Source: an uncultured Prevotella sp. (GTDB lineage Bacteria; Bacteroidota; Bacteroidia; Bacteroidales; Bacteroidaceae). Taken from it: a DNA stretch of 64,000 nt. The translations under genes were made by a program, and so were the position numbers. Shown piece by piece: positions 12,936 through 21,743 of the stretch. The notes under the pieces are model-generated. The model did not search any database. It had not been told where the DNA came from and saw only the letters and a program-made list of their open reading frames with translations. Where the stretch lies: assembly GCA_946188165.1 (NCBI GenBank), contig CAMHTW010000010.1, forward strand, positions 1 to 64,000, written 5' to 3'. Positions within the stretch are counted from its first letter, which is position 1; each line of letters begins with the position of its first letter.

Positions 12936-13919
12936 TTATTCCTCATCCATCGGATAGCGGACATCCCATTTCTGACGCAGCCCATCCATGAGCTGCATGA
13001 TGTAAAGGGTTTCGTCGAGCGGCATCTCATGAGGCTCCAGAAGTCCGTCCATCAGTGCCTGGCGACAAGCCAGGAACTGGTACTCATAACCCGTAATCTG
13101 CTGTGGCACATGAATGGTCTCGATATAAGTCCTGTCAGGACCGTTTACGGTAATGGTCTGCGGATTATTGATATTGTCTATGATGAGGTTGCCCTCTGTA
13201 CCGGCAATCACACCGATATTATCGCCCACGCATTGAGCACTCGATTGCAGGTTGCAAAGCATACCGTCTGCCAATACAAGGGTCATCGCATTCGTCAGGT
13301 CCATACCTGTATCACTCTTCACACAGGTACCGTCAATGCTGACAATGTCGGCAGGAAAGAACATGCGGGCGAAGTTCAGCGCATAGACGCCAAGGTCGAG
13401 CAATGCCCCACCACAGAGGTCGGGACGCATGATGCGTTCCTTGTTGCCCATCGAATAGCCCAACGTGGCAGTAACCAGTCTGGGGGTACCGATACGTCCA
13501 CTGGCTATCAGGTCGCGAACCGTCTTCACTACCGGCTGATAGCGAGTCCAGATAGCCTCCGCCAAAAACACCTCACGTTCCCTGGCAATCTTGATGATTT
13601 CCTCCGTCTGTCGGGCGTTGGCCATAAAGGCCTTCTCCACCAGACAGGGTTTGCCTGCCAGCAACGCCTCCTTAGTGACGTCATAATGGTGGGAATGGGG
13701 CGTACCCACATATATCAGGTCTATATCGGGGTCGGCAATGAGTTCACTATACGAGCCGTAGGCCCGTGGGATATTCCATTTCTTGGCAAATGCGTCTGCC
13801 TTATCTTGTGAACGGGAACCTACAGCATAGGCCTCGCATGCCTTCAGTCCGTTCAGTGTGATGGCTGCCTTCTCAGCAATCCATCCTGTACCTATAATAC
13901 CTACTTTCATATTATCCAT
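12936..13919 (-). CDS. Gfo/Idh/MocA-family oxidoreductase
   Basis: About 328 residues. The Rossmann N-terminus VGIIGTGWIAEKAAITL is followed by YVGTPHSHHYDVTKEALLAGKPCLVEKAF, with the conserved EK pair of this family, and by the C-terminal substrate domain with GGALLDLGVYALNFA. Members oxidise or reduce sugars, inositols and trans-dihydrodiols with NAD(P). The ATG at 13919 overlaps the stop of the epimerase gene by 8 nt, and a second in-frame ATG lies at 13910. The overlap shows co-translation with the epimerase. The sugar is not known. Confidence 0.9.
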   Translation of the reverse strand: MDNMKVGIIGTGWIAEKAAITLNGLKACEAYAVGSRSQDKADAFAKKWNIPRAYGSYSELIADPDIDLIYVGTPHSHHYDVTKEALLAGKPCLVEKAFMANARQTEEIIKIAREREVFLAEAIWTRYQPVVKTVRDLIASGRIGTPRLVTATLGYSMGNKERIMRPDLCGGALLDLGVYALNFARMFFPADIVSIDGTCVKSDTGMDLTNAMTLVLADGMLCNLQSSAQCVGDNIGVIAGTEGNLIIDNINNPQTITVNGPDRTYIETIHVPQQITGYEYQFLACRQALMDGLLEPHEMPLDETLYIMQLMDGLRQKWDVRYPMDEE

Positions 13920-14934
13920 TGAATTGTTGTTTAGCAAGTTCTTGTGCCTCAATAACCTTATCACACCACATGTCGAACTCTGGGTCTTCTACTTGCAGTT
14001 CGGTGTGGGACAAGATATGTTCGACGCAACGGCGCACACCTTCGTCAAAGCGGGTGTTAGCCTGGAAACTAGGGACGGCACGCTTTAGCTTCGTACAGTC
14101 GAAGCAGACCGTAACGCTCTTGTCGCCCAAGAGATTACCCTCGAAGTCCCATGCCTTCGGAGCAACGGCAGCCAGAAACTCAGAAGCCACATAGTAAGGC
14201 TTCATTGTAACATGGAGTGCATTGGCAACACACTCGTAAATCTGTGTCCATGTCAGTTGCTCGTCACTCATAATCTGGAATGCCTCGCCAATAGCCTTTG
14301 GATTGCCAAGCAGACCGATAAAGCCACGGGCAAAGTCCTCATTCCATGTCAGTGTCCACAACGACGAACCATCCCCCTGAATGATGACGGGCTTTCCTGC
14401 CATCATACGCTTCAGAACAGACCAGCTGCCCTTCAGTCCATGTACGCTGATAGGCACACCGCGTTCACAATACGTATGACTGGGGCGCACGATGGTAACA
14501 GGGAAGCCGTTCTCTCGGTATTCGCGCATCAACAGCTCCTCGCAGGCAATCTTATTGCGAGAATACTCCCAATGCGAGTTAGCCAATGTCGTACCCTCAG
14601 TAATGACATGACTGGCTGCGGGCTTATGATAGGCTGAAGCCGACGAGATATAGACATACTGGCGTGTACGTCCCTTGAAGAGCCTGATGTCACGCTCCAC
14701 CTGTGCAGGAACAAAACCGATAAACTCACAGACGGCATCGAAGGTTTCGCAGGCTAAACTATCAAGCACACTGCTTTCATCGTCAATATCGACGATGAGT
14801 TGTTTCACGTTTGCAGGCACTTCGTCCTTTCGTGTGCCACGGTTTAGCAGCCACAACTCATGACCACCCTCTGCCAGTTGTCGGGTAATGGCACTGCTGA
14901 TAGTGCCTGTTCCACCTATTAATAATATTTTCAT
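13912..14934 (-). CDS. NAD-dependent epimerase/dehydratase family protein (extended SDR)
   Basis: About 340 residues. The nucleotide-binding motif KILLIGGTGTISS is at the N-terminus and fixes the start at 14934; the ORF-track start at 14976 lies upstream within the preceding gene's stop region. The catalytic YxxxK is seen as EYSRNKIACEE, preceded by ISSASAYHK. Family members act on nucleotide sugars or free sugars. The gene overlaps the Gfo/Idh gene. The leader carries the 14-mer ATTTTGTACACAGA (plus strand, 14949-14962), which also occurs before the Fe-ADH gene at 21166. Confidence 0.88.
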   Translation of the reverse strand: MKILLIGGTGTISSAITRQLAEGGHELWLLNRGTRKDEVPANVKQLIVDIDDESSVLDSLACETFDAVCEFIGFVPAQVERDIRLFKGRTRQYVYISSASAYHKPAASHVITEGTTLANSHWEYSRNKIACEELLMREYRENGFPVTIVRPSHTYCERGVPISVHGLKGSWSVLKRMMAGKPVIIQGDGSSLWTLTWNEDFARGFIGLLGNPKAIGEAFQIMSDEQLTWTQIYECVANALHVTMKPYYVASEFLAAVAPKAWDFEGNLLGDKSVTVCFDCTKLKRAVPSFQANTRFDEGVRRCVEHILSHTELQVEDPEFDMWCDKVIEAQELAKQQFNG

Positions 14935-14972
14935 AACACTTGATTTATATTTTGTACACAGAAACATAGAGT

Positions 14973-16463
14973 TCACTGTTCACTTTTCACTAGCGAAGCG
15001 CTTTCACTTTTCTTCGCCGTTTCCTCTAACTGGCGAGTCAGACGGCTGATGTTGTCGGCACTCTCCAGCATACGAGTAGTGATGTCATCCACTTCGTCAG
15101 ACTCCAGGCTGTGACGATTGGCGGTAAGCACCTGTACAAAGCCACTGATGATGTTGAGTGGCGTACGTATCTCGTGATACATATAATGAATGAAGTCTGC
15201 CTTACGACGGTTGGTTTCCTGCTTCAGTTGGGTGGCATTGGCAAGCTCGTCGTTATGTTGTTCAAGTTCCTCGTTGACACGACGGATATCGTTAACTGTT
15301 GTGGCGAGTGACTGCTGCATGAGGATAAAGCTGTTGGTCAGACGGCCCACGCTGTCGTGACGCGGACTTGGTGGCAGAGGCTCGTCGAACACCCCGTCAG
15401 CTATCCGCCGTGCCTGTTCGTCAAGCAGGTGCAAGGGCTGGATTGCTCGTCGCACAATCTGGTAGCAGACAAGGAGCAGCAGAAGCAAACCAGTCGCGAT
15501 AATCACGATGACGTTGGCGAACAGACGATTGTACCGGGCAAAGATGTCGCTGGCCGGACAAACGATGGCAATGCTCCACCCCGTACGCTCCAATGGGGTA
15601 TAGAAGATGAAGGCGTCACGGTCATCGACAATGGTCATCGTCATACCGCTATGCCCGGCAAGCATGGACTTGCCGAGTCTGTTGATGTCACGCTGCGCCT
15701 CTGGTGCTGCATCGCTGAAAATGGTCTCATGATACAATTTCGCCGTATCGGGATGAACCAGATAGACTCCATTACGTCCCACCATGATAGCTGACGAATT
15801 GGGATAGGGCTTTAAGGCAGAGACGGTCTGTGAGAGCCATTTCAGCGTCAGACTGGCGGTGACAGAGCCAATAAAGCGACCTTCATCGTCACGCATGGGA
15901 CAGCAGTACGAAGTCAGGTAGTCGGGTGAGGAGAGCGTGCCCTCGTTGTAATCGTCATAGGCATCGACCCAGCAGGCCGTACCGAGCGTGTGCGGTGTCT
16001 TATACCAGACAGCCTCAAAATACTCGAAAGGCCCCTCGCGCACGGTGGTAATACTGTCGGAACCTGGTGTCCTGTCACGTAGTGAATAGGCTGAATAGTA
16101 ACGTCCCTTGTCTGGGAAGAAGTTGGGTTCCATCGAGATGGCCATACCTGTAAGGAAGGGATTCTCGACAATGGCACGACGGGTGAAGACAAGCAGGGAG
16201 TCGGGATGCAGGTGATGAGGTGTGGTCTGTGCCAGATGCTTGGTCACCAATTCTGTCTCTTCCATAATACCGTTGATGCGTACCACGGTATTGTCGAGCA
16301 ACTGGGTGGCACGGGCTATGGCCACACGCTGGATATAGCGTTTGCAGCGGTAGAACAGAATACCGAAAATCAAGGCAAATGCCACTGTGATAATCAGCAC
16401 GATGATGATGCCGAGGCGCAGCGAGAGGTGCTCGCGGAAATTGCGGAGTAATCGGAATGTCAT
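14973..16463 (-). CDS. Sensor kinase-like protein with Cache sensor, HAMP and HisKA but no ATPase domain
   Basis: 496 residues. A transmembrane segment at about 18-40 is followed by a large extracytoplasmic double-Cache-like sensor (about 45-310, with VGRNGVYLVHPD), a second transmembrane segment (about 315-340), a HAMP linker and coiled coil, and a HisKA helix with the full phosphoacceptor motif HEIRTPLN (H430). Only 66 residues follow. The HATPase_c domain (N, G1, F and G2 boxes) is absent, so the protein cannot autophosphorylate alone. It overlaps the next sensor-like gene by 4 nt (ATGA). It could be phosphorylated in trans, act as a phosphotransfer or decoy partner, or be a remnant. Confidence 0.82.
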   Translation of the reverse strand: MTFRLLRNFREHLSLRLGIIIVLIITVAFALIFGILFYRCKRYIQRVAIARATQLLDNTVVRINGIMEETELVTKHLAQTTPHHLHPDSLLVFTRRAIVENPFLTGMAISMEPNFFPDKGRYYSAYSLRDRTPGSDSITTVREGPFEYFEAVWYKTPHTLGTACWVDAYDDYNEGTLSSPDYLTSYCCPMRDDEGRFIGSVTASLTLKWLSQTVSALKPYPNSSAIMVGRNGVYLVHPDTAKLYHETIFSDAAPEAQRDINRLGKSMLAGHSGMTMTIVDDRDAFIFYTPLERTGWSIAIVCPASDIFARYNRLFANVIVIIATGLLLLLLVCYQIVRRAIQPLHLLDEQARRIADGVFDEPLPPSPRHDSVGRLTNSFILMQQSLATTVNDIRRVNEELEQHNDELANATQLKQETNRRKADFIHYMYHEIRTPLNIISGFVQVLTANRHSLESDEVDDITTRMLESADNISRLTRQLEETAKKSESASLVKSEQ

Positions 16464-17485
16464 GACTGCGAAGGATTTTCCATGAGTTGATCGAGTAGCT
16501 CGGTAATCGTCTGGGTAGCTTGCATGATGTCGGTCTGAAGGACCGTCATCTCTGCTTTCGAGAGAGAGTTATAGTCACGACAAACTGCTTCTGTACTATC
16601 ACATATCTTTGACACTGGAGCAGCCATACGGTCGGTCATCTTGGAGAGAACTTTTTGGCGTAATGCCTCGTAGGCCTCTGCCTCCGAATAGGCTGTCTGC
16701 AATTCAGCATTCTGTTGACTCAATGCCTCCTTTTTCTGCTGCATCTCTGCTATATAGGCGGCCAAAGAGGTCTGCATCTTCTTCAGACTGTTTTGCAGAC
16801 GTCCTGTCTCGTGTTGGTGGTAAGCTGTTGGAATCGGCGTGTCGAGGTTGCCATTGGCAATGCTCTGTGCTGCGTCTGCCAAACGATGAAGCGGACGCAG
16901 GTGGCTGGCCACAACCAGAAAGAGGATGTAGAGCAGGATGAGCACACCGATACCGCCCCTCAGCAGGATGAACCACTGTACTCCCGGATTATATTCGTAG
17001 ATGTCCTGGGCCGGACAAACCACCGCAAGACTGAAGTCACGTTCGCCAATAGGCTGAGAGAAGATAAATGTCTCGCGCCCCTCGTAGAACATCAGTCGAT
17101 AGCCTTGCTCGTCGCCAGCAATAAAAGAACTCAGCTGACTGCTGTCGCGACGACTGACAAAGAGCTCTGCGTGAGGCAACGACTGCCGTATGATGTTCTC
17201 AAAATTGTTTTCTACAACCAGTCGTTCAATGCTCCCACGTGTCACTCGCAGAGACTGGTGTTCCAGACGTGCCGTCATCTCAGCCTGTGTCAGCATGTTG
17301 TTAATACGCAATGCCGTATTCTCCAAGGCCTGCTGCGTGGTATCGATGGACTCTTGATGAATACTGTCTTGTGAGAATCGTGCCAAAAGGAAGATGACAA
17401 CACCCGAGATGACCAGCACAAAGCCAGCCACCCACAGCGTCAGCTGCCAGGTAAACGAGGTATGTATCTTCTCTATAAACTGCAT
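16460..17485 (-). CDS. Sensor-like membrane protein with HAMP and a degenerate HisKA helix
   Basis: 341 residues. A transmembrane segment (about 14-36), a short extracytoplasmic sensor, a second transmembrane segment (about 178-200), a HAMP domain (PLHRLADAAQSIANGNL) and a coiled coil can be seen. The C-terminal helix resembles a HisKA domain, but the usual HExRTP box reads DRMAAP, so the phosphoacceptor His is replaced by Asp (D285). No ATPase domain follows. The stop overlaps the next sensor gene (ATGA), and only 6 nt separate the start from the GH9 stop. The pair may sense a signal linked to the glycosidase operon, but neither carries a working kinase core. Confidence 0.8.
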   Translation of the reverse strand: MQFIEKIHTSFTWQLTLWVAGFVLVISGVVIFLLARFSQDSIHQESIDTTQQALENTALRINNMLTQAEMTARLEHQSLRVTRGSIERLVVENNFENIIRQSLPHAELFVSRRDSSQLSSFIAGDEQGYRLMFYEGRETFIFSQPIGERDFSLAVVCPAQDIYEYNPGVQWFILLRGGIGVLILLYILFLVVASHLRPLHRLADAAQSIANGNLDTPIPTAYHQHETGRLQNSLKKMQTSLAAYIAEMQQKKEALSQQNAELQTAYSEAEAYEALRQKVLSKMTDRMAAPVSKICDSTEAVCRDYNSLSKAEMTVLQTDIMQATQTITELLDQLMENPSQS

Positions 17486-17491
17486 AATCGA

Positions 17492-19945
17492 CTATTTAGG
17501 TGCGACGATATTCTTCAACGACGAACCAAAGATGACATACTGGGTGTTACCTGCAATAGTTCCTTCATTCTGTCCCCAGAGGAAGGGCCAGTCATCGTAA
17601 TTCTCGAAGTGGTCAGGCTTGCGGAACAACAGACCAGGCGCCACGTTACCTGGGATAGCTGAAAAGTCTGCACGGTTGTTACCATAGAAGACCTGCTTGG
17701 GACGGGCGGCACCCACTACAGCCACAAACGAGTAGTTGTGGTACGGATGACAACCGTATAACCAATTGGCCACACGATAGACCTCGTCCTTGCTGACGAT
17801 GTCGGGATAGTAGATATGGGCATAGTTGACGGTAATGCCGAAATTCAGCACGGCATTGACACCTGCCCAGTTGCCCAAACCAATGGGTACACCGTATGGG
17901 TTCTGCGTGTCGAAACTATGGATATATTCATTGTACTTTTCTACAGCAGGACGTAGCTTCTGCTTATAGGCCTCGTCCTTCATAGGTATGGAGTCAAGAG
18001 CCGTTTGCAAATTACGGGCTACATTGCCAAGACCTGTCAACCAGTCGTTGTCAGCCTCAGCTTGACGGTCTCGACGGAATCGCGGCCCACGCTGAAGGGC
18101 TGTTGCCTCTTGGCGCAAGCGGTCTGCCTGCTTTTGTGCTCTGTCAGCCAGCTCGTCGTTAAAACCCTTGAGCACACGGGCTGCTGAGGTAAAGACACCC
18201 GCTGCCTGCAGGTCGAGACGGGGATTACGGTTCGTGAAAGCCCACATATCGTCGGGCGTACCACTACGCTTGCCGTCAGCACTAACCTCGTAAGGTTTCA
18301 GCGAAGGGTCGTAGTGCAGTCCATCTGTAATAGATGCTGCATCGCCCAAGTGATGATAGTTATCGAGTACGGAATTGGAGAGTGTCGATGACATGTGACC
18401 TATCTGCTCAGCCTGAGCCACGAGGTTCAGCACGCCATGTTCGATAAACTGCAGGATATCGGGTTTACCATCTGGACGATGCAGTTCTACGTAGCGCTGT
18501 TCCTGCGAGACAAAGGTCTCATCACGCTGGGGATGGAACAATTCCCATGTGCGGATGAAGTTCTGTACCACATTGATGTTCGAACCTGTCTCGATGTCGA
18601 AGTCGCCCGCATCGAAGAAGCCACCAACATTCAGACCAGGAATCAATTCGTAGGGCTTGTATTTTGTATCGGTGTTCTTTCCCTGACGGTGCAGATCGAA
18701 GTGGTCACTCTCCGGTGCCTGCAGATAACCCTCCTTGAAAGGTTCTCCATGCCACGTACGGTAGCCCTCCGTCACGTACATGTGGTTCATGTGGATTGGA
18801 ACCCACACATCTGTCGTAGCATCGGTAATCTTGTCGTACACGTGTTCGTCAATCAAGAAATCGTTCGTCTTGGTCTTGCCGTACTGGATGTAATAGACGC
18901 CAGGCTGACGGACACTTGAGAAGTCGAACTTCACATAATTATATTTATAATAAGGACCCCAGGTTTTGACGCCACTCCTGTAAGCCTCGGTAATGGTACC
19001 ATCAGGATTGAGGCGCATCAGACTGGCAGAACCATTCTGCATGGGGTCGTTCTTATCCAGTTCGATGACAGCTACCTTGGGCTGCTCAGGAGTGTAGCCA
19101 ACCTGTGAGAACCCGATGTTAGGTTCACGAATCCAACCTGGGATGGCGTAGGGCTCTACTGTCCATGTGACAACCTTACCCGTCTTACCTGCTGGTAATA
19201 CGCTACGCAACACGAACCAACCATTCTGTGCCAGCATACGTCCATCGTACAGTTTCAACTCAGCATCGTCACTCGAGATGCTGATCATGCGCTCAGGGGC
19301 ATCCGTAGCTACCGTAATGCGATGACCAGTCTCTAATGGCAGGGGGTCCACAAAGCGGTTGGTACCACGATCGTCGTAGGTCTTAAAGCCTTTGAACTGA
19401 CGGGGCTTCTCGCTATTGGGACGTGTGATGGTCTGACTGGTGGCATAACGAGGGAAGCGACCCAGACGGTTGTCCATCTGATAGGTCTTCAACCAATACT
19501 GTGAGGGCAAGAACTCAATATTCAGTCCTGCCTCACCAGCCAGCTTGGCTGGTACGGGCTTGTCCAACCAGACAGCAATCTCTACTGCCTTGCCTTTGGC
19601 TGTCACCACGATACGACTGTCGAAGTCGTAGTCATCATAGCGCAGAGCCACCTCGATGCTACCATTCTCTTTATCGACCTTACGACTGGTCATCTTTGGC
19701 ACCAGGTCCCACTGTTCTGGGGTGTTGTTCAGACGGATGGCTCCACCCTGTACGGTACGAACCCCGTGGTGGATAACCTCGATACCTGAGTTCTTTTCGT
19801 CGTTGAAGCCGCCGTTGAAACTATTGCTGAACACCAGCACGTTCACGCCCTGGCGTTCGAAATACTCAAGGTCGTTAAGTGTTAAGTCTTGTGCATAGCC
19901 GGTAACGACTGAAGCCAGTACCAGCATGAAGAGGTGTTGTCTCAT
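17492..19945 (-). CDS. Glycoside hydrolase family 9 protein (endoglucanase type) with N-terminal extension
   Basis: 817 residues with a signal peptide (MRQHLFMLVLASVVTGYAQ). Residues of about 20-270 form a beta-rich region with no family I can name. An Ig-like CelD_N-type domain begins near IREPNIGFSQVGY. The (alpha/alpha)6 GH9 domain follows. GGFFDAGDFD near residue 440 holds the catalytic base Asp pair, and GQNEGTIAGNTQY near residue 790 holds the catalytic acid Glu. GH9 enzymes cut beta-1,4-glucans. The protein would act in the periplasm or at the cell surface. The sensor-like genes follow directly and the Fe-ADH gene precedes by 33 nt. Exact glucan specificity cannot be read. Confidence 0.88.
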   Translation of the reverse strand: MRQHLFMLVLASVVTGYAQDLTLNDLEYFERQGVNVLVFSNSFNGGFNDEKNSGIEVIHHGVRTVQGGAIRLNNTPEQWDLVPKMTSRKVDKENGSIEVALRYDDYDFDSRIVVTAKGKAVEIAVWLDKPVPAKLAGEAGLNIEFLPSQYWLKTYQMDNRLGRFPRYATSQTITRPNSEKPRQFKGFKTYDDRGTNRFVDPLPLETGHRITVATDAPERMISISSDDAELKLYDGRMLAQNGWFVLRSVLPAGKTGKVVTWTVEPYAIPGWIREPNIGFSQVGYTPEQPKVAVIELDKNDPMQNGSASLMRLNPDGTITEAYRSGVKTWGPYYKYNYVKFDFSSVRQPGVYYIQYGKTKTNDFLIDEHVYDKITDATTDVWVPIHMNHMYVTEGYRTWHGEPFKEGYLQAPESDHFDLHRQGKNTDTKYKPYELIPGLNVGGFFDAGDFDIETGSNINVVQNFIRTWELFHPQRDETFVSQEQRYVELHRPDGKPDILQFIEHGVLNLVAQAEQIGHMSSTLSNSVLDNYHHLGDAASITDGLHYDPSLKPYEVSADGKRSGTPDDMWAFTNRNPRLDLQAAGVFTSAARVLKGFNDELADRAQKQADRLRQEATALQRGPRFRRDRQAEADNDWLTGLGNVARNLQTALDSIPMKDEAYKQKLRPAVEKYNEYIHSFDTQNPYGVPIGLGNWAGVNAVLNFGITVNYAHIYYPDIVSKDEVYRVANWLYGCHPYHNYSFVAVVGAARPKQVFYGNNRADFSAIPGNVAPGLLFRKPDHFENYDDWPFLWGQNEGTIAGNTQYVIFGSSLKNIVAPK

Positions 19946-21192: not shown

Positions 21193-21248
21193 CTCAATTT
21201 CTCATTTTCTCAATTTCTCATTTTCTCAATTTCTCAATTTCTCAATTG
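21193..21248. repeat. TTTCTCAATTTCTCAT tandem repeat
   Basis: About five imperfect copies of a 9-10 bp unit (CTCAATTT / CTCATTTT). The last codons and the stop of the ECF-like gene (…QLRN-stop) are read from the repeat on the minus strand. Confidence 0.8.
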
Positions 21249-21743
21249 AACAATCCCCCATGTTCCGAACAACATGAGAAGCAATCCAGGCCAACCAATG
21301 GTAAAGTCGGCTATCGTAGCAGCAATTCCACCAGTCAGGATGAACTCACCCAGACAACCAATAGCCATGCTGACAAGGATGACACCAATCAACAGAGACA
21401 GGCTGACGGTCTTGAAATGCTGGGCAACGAGTCCTGCGACAAGGGCCAGAGTGACCAGCTTGAAGGTCATGACGGGCATAACCTCCCAAGCGGGCATACC
21501 AGTAACGGCATGATTGACCAACGGTGAGGCAAGGGCTGCCAACAACCCCGTCTTCCATCCAAACTTATAGGATCCGGCAAGGATGACCAGCGACAGCGGT
21601 GCAAAGATGATGCCTCCCTGCGGAATAAGGTGGAACAACTGAGGCAGTATCAAGTTGCAAGCCACGAACACCGTTGCCCACAGATACGTCTTTGCCTCGT
21701 CATAATCGAGTGAATAAAGTCTTACATTTGCTTCCATAATCAT
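21234..21743 (-). CDS. Small integral membrane protein, putative ECF transporter S component
   Basis: 169 residues with five or six hydrophobic segments (for example YLWATVFVACNLILPQLFHL and APLSLVILAGSYKFGW). Size, topology and the small-residue-rich helices suggest a substrate-binding S component of an energy-coupling-factor vitamin transporter. No ECF ATPase or T component is nearby. Position right after a CirA/BtuB-like TonB-dependent receptor would fit uptake of one micronutrient across both membranes (inference). The start may be the Met at 21743 or at 21737. I am not certain of the family. Confidence 0.5.
   Translation of the reverse strand: MIMEANVRLYSLDYDEAKTYLWATVFVACNLILPQLFHLIPQGGIIFAPLSLVILAGSYKFGWKTGLLAALASPLVNHAVTGMPAWEVMPVMTFKLVTLALVAGLVAQHFKTVSLSLLIGVILVSMAIGCLGEFILTGGIAATIADFTIGWPGLLLMLFGTWGIVQLRN

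Follow-up and report, generated by a model that had tools for sequence, protein, structure and literature searches.

Precedents exist for sensor-kinase-like proteins whose signalling involves a second polypeptide, namely the FasB/FasC pair and the split kinases. In Streptococcus, FasB and FasC are tandem sensor-kinase-like proteins reported to form a heterodimer, in which FasC can do without its kinase domain but not without the histidine of its DHp domain (PMC12675982). In the split kinases CheA3/CheA4 of Rhodobacter, the phosphoacceptor protein has no ATPase domain of its own (PMC3591291). Moreover, 3.66% of the HisKA proteins in SMART are without an HATPase domain, and the HE/DxxN/T motif found in this context is associated with phosphatase activity (PMC3591291). 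It is easy to dismiss an ATPase-less HisKA protein as a fragment. No paper describing the gene pair reported here was found in the literature searched, whose coverage leaves out most subscription journals.

The window, that is, the whole stretch of 64,000 nucleotides from an uncultured Prevotella sp. analysed in this work, encodes on its minus strand two sensor-kinase-like proteins in tandem, B341 (341 amino acids; 16460-17485) and A496 (496 amino acids; 14973-16463). The two genes overlap by 4 nt (ATGA, 16460-16463, minus strand), the stop of B341 being joined to the start of A496. A GH9-like gene for a protein of 817 amino acids (17492-19945, minus strand) ends 6 nt before B341, and an NAD-dependent epimerase gene (13912-14976, minus strand) lies directly downstream of A496, so that GH9-like gene, B341, A496 and epimerase gene form one collinear series. 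The GH9-like protein is divergent: in Pfam, its CelD_N domain passes with 34.8 bits (cut-off 24.6), and Glyco_hydro_9 stays at 20.6 bits, under the cut-off of 27.7. No HATPase gene or remnant adjoins A496. Elsewhere in the window, a hydrophobic protein of 169 amino acids (21234-21743), encoded beside a TonB receptor gene, resembles by eye the membrane component of a transporter.

A496 has two hydrophobic, putatively membrane-spanning segments (residues 19-37 and 314-332) and the Pfam domains dCache_1, MCP-like_PDC_1, HAMP and HisKA, the last at residues 421-485 with 44.9 bits and an intact HEIRTPLN box. The phosphoacceptor is His430 of 496, and the protein ends 66 residues beyond it with no Pfam match to HATPase_c. 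In other words, A496 carries the HisKA domain and the phosphoacceptor histidine of a HisKA-type sensor histidine kinase, and not the HATPase_c domain that such a kinase has in the same protein. It also contains the HE/DxxN/T motif, in which the codon of residue 431 lies at 15171-15173 of the window. The AlphaFold monomer model of A496 is of low confidence (pLDDT 41). B341 likewise has two hydrophobic segments (17-35 and 173-191), followed by HAMP (192-242) as the sole Pfam domain above cut-off. Its sensor, much shorter than that of A496, cannot be recognised as a double Cache, no dCache domain being above cut-off. The protein ends in a DHp-like hairpin, where the His-box site reads MTDRMAAP, with Asp at the His position and 56 residues to the C-terminus; B341 is thus without the phosphoacceptor histidine of a HisKA-type kinase, and HATPase_c has no Pfam match here either. 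In the AlphaFold monomer model of B341, also of low confidence (pLDDT 58), the usable part is the helical hairpin only, and a Foldseek search of the PDB with the models gave no match at E <= 0.001. The preliminary description of this locus had reported the ORF positions, the 4-nt overlap, two membrane segments and a HAMP in each protein, HEIRTPLN followed by 66 residues, DRMAAP in place of the box and no HATPase_c in either protein, and on all these points the present analysis agrees with it. The outer sensors that it gave to both proteins stand for the dCache of A496 and need rewording for the short sensor of B341; the GH9 gene 6 nt upstream is correctly placed, but its assignment to GH9 is weak.

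Compared with the described systems, the A/B pair resembles FasB/FasC in that two sensor-kinase-like proteins are encoded in tandem. FasB, however, has a functional kinase domain, and a response regulator gene accompanies the FasB and FasC genes, whereas neither A nor B has an ATPase, so that no member of the pair has the active kinase domain expected in a FasB/FasC-like system, and no regulator gene is adjacent. The likeness of A496 to CheA3/CheA4 lies in a phosphoacceptor without its own ATPase, but the latter are CheA-type proteins whose partner ATPase is known, whereas A496 is a HisKA membrane sensor whose partner we infer. Indeed, A496 has the composition of the phosphoacceptor subunit of a split histidine kinase with no cognate ATPase gene adjacent to it, and the HATPases found in its own genome are on contigs other than that of the pair. 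Finally, A496 shares with the SMART proteins a HisKA without HATPase, and in addition carries the HE/DxxN/T motif listed in that study (PMC3591291); the A/B pair differs from that group in being one defined orthologous group, traced through repeated loss and with a conserved pseudo-DHp partner.

The closest relatives of the pair are found within the genus. Tandem pairs of about 500 + 610-640 amino acids are abundant across Prevotella. The protein of the first gene (R) has a sensor, a HAMP and a DHp-like hairpin but neither His nor ATPase, and that of the second (K) is a complete dCache-HAMP-HisKA-HATPase kinase. This family of His-less receptor and dCache kinase was seen genus-wide (L034, L036-L048), and the genome under study holds one such pair (L034, on contig C45; 504 + 633 amino acids). 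In four sampled loci (L036-L038 and L044) a gene of about 320-360 codons precedes the R-K pair, and in both of those tested (L037, L044) it encodes an NMT1-type binding protein. No response regulator is encoded among the neighbours of the full-length pairs tested.

The A/B pair is derived from this R-K family, with A496 on the K side and B341, its sensor shortened, on the R side. A/B and R-K pairs have in common the gene order, the overlap or near-overlap, the sensor, the HAMP and the DHp family, with a homologous dCache-HAMP-HisKA protein encoded immediately after an ATPase-less and His-less receptor. R resembles B341 in having neither the His nor the ATPase, although the typical R sensor is longer; K keeps HATPase_c, whereas A496 is without it, and among A/B pairs the second protein is a complete kinase only in two orthologous loci, L033 (637 amino acids) and L091 (635 amino acids). 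Because these two orthologues are full-length kinases, A496 is a former histidine kinase. B341 is not a degraded kinase, since the ATPase is absent from every member of its class seen.

With regard to the sensor of A, its sensor-HAMP part (residues 8-401) is 41% identical to a dCache-HAMP-SpoIIE-HATPase protein, its closest homologue by identity in the same genome. The gene of this relative stands in a row with genes for an NMT1 binding protein, a STAS protein and a RelA/SpoT-domain protein (L035:4929-9861, contig C73). The ligand loop is almost unchanged among truncated A proteins (VREGPFEYF..WYKTP....W.DA.DDYNEGT). A role for A as a CahR-type AI-2 receptor was considered and rejected: in a comparison by eye with the R-W-Y-D-D motif (PMC9540692), A or K (T in one) stands at the expected Arg (EAVWY), and the Arg two residues before the pocket Trp is absent.

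A search for B341 orthologues in 398 Prevotella genomes, many of which are incomplete metagenome assemblies, gave 29 hits, one of which (G244) was excluded as an R-type paralogue. True orthologues are hence present in 28 of the 398 species-level genomes, a recurrence that puts the pair arrangement far beyond chance. At these loci, A is complete and without HATPase in 20 cases, full-length in two, broken in two and cut by contig ends in four. A separate contig scan, which found only three close relatives, added two complete copies (L074 and L075), so that 22 complete truncated A proteins, including that of the window, are considered below. The B-A junction was measured at 25 loci and is of -4 nt in 22; in the other three the sole difference is an alternative start codon further upstream, which gives a longer ORF. 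Since the pair with its 4-nt overlap recurs in 28 of 398 genomes, this is a conserved truncation and not local decay, and the treatment of the two genes as a unit in the preliminary description is borne out. The search for the pair near GH9 genes that it proposed does find the pair widely, but with no constant GH9 neighbour: the genes directly upstream in relatives include GH3, GH43, GH10-esterase, NAD-epimerase, TonB receptor, nitroreductase and acyl-CoA transferase genes, and a pair specific to GH9 was therefore rejected. The deep loci L033, L091 and L095 are solitary, with 350-600 nt of upstream space, and main-clade pairs lie mostly within longer gene runs. A full-length tandem kinase is also encoded in 24/28 carriers of the pair, against 97/370 non-carriers (Fisher 4e-10, on raw counts that ignore phylogeny).

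The tree of A (from sensor to DHp) and the independent tree of B each need the HATPase state to change three times, on branches with good support. In a tree of HATPase domains alone, those of L033 and L091 group as sisters (98/95), which fits vertical inheritance and, with it, at least three losses. These losses fall in the main clade including the window, in L097 and in L093 + L095. The reverse scenario, a regain of HATPase in L033 and L091, is disfavoured, because sister domains would not come from different paralogues. In all 22 complete truncated A proteins the C-terminus lies 52-84 residues past the His, after the second DHp helix, and R and B proteins naturally stop 51-71 residues past the same position. 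Random truncation would not be expected to strike one domain boundary several times and spare the hairpin. Downstream of the truncated copies tested, up to 1.5 kb, no HATPase remnant was detected (best tblastn E 0.017, short scattered matches), and a hidden downstream HATPase separated by a frameshift was accordingly rejected. The preliminary description had held that full-length kinases among the relatives would reveal a plain truncation. Such relatives do occur, and L033 and L091 establish truncation as the origin of A; the truncation is nevertheless not a plain one, since the shortened form was then conserved and arose three times or more at one and the same boundary.

Genuine decay is seen at two other loci. 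In L084 (6424-7404) only about 80 residues of A remain, joined to an FMN-reductase ORF, and in L092 (9061-9390) it is reduced to 109 amino acids, comprising the N-terminus and, by eye, the HATPase end. One genus thereby offers a natural series, from the full tandem pair through three domain losses to a conserved His-only form and two decaying copies, in which it can be asked which features selection retains after the loss of the kinase.

Selection on the pair was estimated by pairwise dN/dS (Nei-Gojobori), several pairs having saturated dS. Following truncation, values for A are 0.065-0.21 (0.11 between the window and L076). Those for B are mostly 0.06-0.17, the L093-L095 pair reaching 0.28. 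By comparison, close relatives of the C45 pair, whose tandem kinases and receptors are intact, give 0.05-0.10. The dN/dS check advised in the preliminary description thus indicates purifying selection. Within A, the DHp of the window lineage has a dN/dS of 0.18-0.27, against 0.09 in the intact kinase at similar dS, a faster rate from which part of the DHp surface of truncated A appears to be relaxed. The phosphoacceptor region is, by contrast with B, invariant: the His, IRTPLN and GF are each conserved in 22/22 truncated A proteins, whereas B has D, A, T, Q, E, N, S or H at the homologous position across the same genomes. B serves here as an internal control, and its free variation implies that packing of the hairpin needs no His. 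The residue following the His is Gln in 17/17 full-length family members examined; in truncated A it is Glu in 15 of 22, Gln in four and Arg, Lys and Ala in one each. The Glu completes the HE/DxxN/T motif.

The sensors of the pair are probably working proteins that need the help of another kinase, and not dead genes. On balance, we lean towards a conserved B-A sensor heteromer that would signal through the His of A, either with the ATPase of another protein or as a phosphatase or phosphate sink. Against this reading count the absence of response regulator genes near the full-length pairs tested, the relaxed part of the DHp surface and the three of 22 copies in which Arg, Lys or Ala replaces the acid or amide after the His. 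A496 would sense a periplasmic ligand through its dCache-HAMP part, and its DHp hairpin, which is complete, would present the phosphoacceptor His; B341 may pair with A496 through the DHp and HAMP helices. Since the pair has no HATPase of its own, output through the His of A would be achieved jointly with another protein. In a split-kinase mode, an ATPase-bearing kinase encoded elsewhere in the genome would phosphorylate A in trans; otherwise, a response regulator common to the paralogous kinases could be the target of the DHp, which would then serve, under ligand control, as its phosphatase or phosphate sink. This agrees with one of the two readings put forward in the preliminary description, a receptor complex working with a separate kinase, which appears to be the better one. 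Its other reading, decaying copies, finds no support for the copy in the window, although it applies to L084 and L092. That the pair is a sensor-kinase remnant tolerated in a metabolic operon would accord with the descent of A from a full-length kinase and with the true decay of those two copies. It is nonetheless strongly disfavoured and, in our judgement, highly improbable, as comparisons between species give a dN/dS of about 0.1 across hundreds of codons, the ORFs are intact in the 22 complete copies (about 20 species), with neither the broken frames nor the dN/dS near 1 of pseudogenes, the 4-nt overlap is conserved, three independent losses fall at the same boundary and the His does not vary.

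Two further explanations keep the pair functional and leave the His aside. The truncated pair might form heterodimers with the full-length tandem kinases of its family and, as a ligand-gated dominant-negative or decoy, block or tune them, its His being unused; full-length paralogues whose dCache, HAMP and DHp are homologous to its own are available for this in 24 of the 28 carriers, the architecture has come to resemble that of the R and B receptors, which lack the ATPase by nature, and RetS-GacS is a precedent for inhibition through kinase heterodimerisation (PMC12189002). We regard it as rather unlikely, for it leaves unexplained why the His of A is invariant while B varies freely at the same position. 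Conservation of this region also counts against an output outside the phosphorelay, for instance through HAMP or coiled-coil contacts as in the partner-switching proteins that share the sensor, since neither the DHp hairpin nor the H-box would be needed for it; the sensor module is indeed shared with a phosphatase system, as the 41% identity to the SpoIIE-HATPase protein shows, but the explanation seems unlikely. The natural series in this genus offers a clean test of kinase borrowing against phosphatase and decoy activity for a phosphoacceptor-only receptor.

As for the partner of the favoured B-A heteromer, one speculative candidate is a membrane-anchored protein of 308 amino acids encoded in the same genome (C9:29001-29924), with an intact HATPase_c and without HisKA and His, which looks like a structural mirror image of A496. 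A bolder, very unlikely scheme would have repeated ATPase loss selected for, yielding a His-only membrane sensor phosphorylated by a detached ATPase protein, so that A and the 308-aa protein might together make up a sensor kinase split by nature into two. As a dedicated partner, the 308-aa protein was rejected, since it is not enriched among carriers (16/28, against 49/97 other tandem-kinase genomes; p = 0.67). Its gene lies in an operon with SpoIIE, RsbW-like and STAS genes (the STAS gene in relatives). In many species the gene at this place encodes such a membrane-anchored HATPase_c protein without HisKA and His, and in others, including some carriers, a complete soluble kinase with HEIRTPLN. 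An operon of this kind, with SpoIIE phosphatase, RsbW-like, STAS and kinase-like genes, is present in 75 of 398 Prevotella genomes (L106:1502-2428, plus strand; L123-L142).
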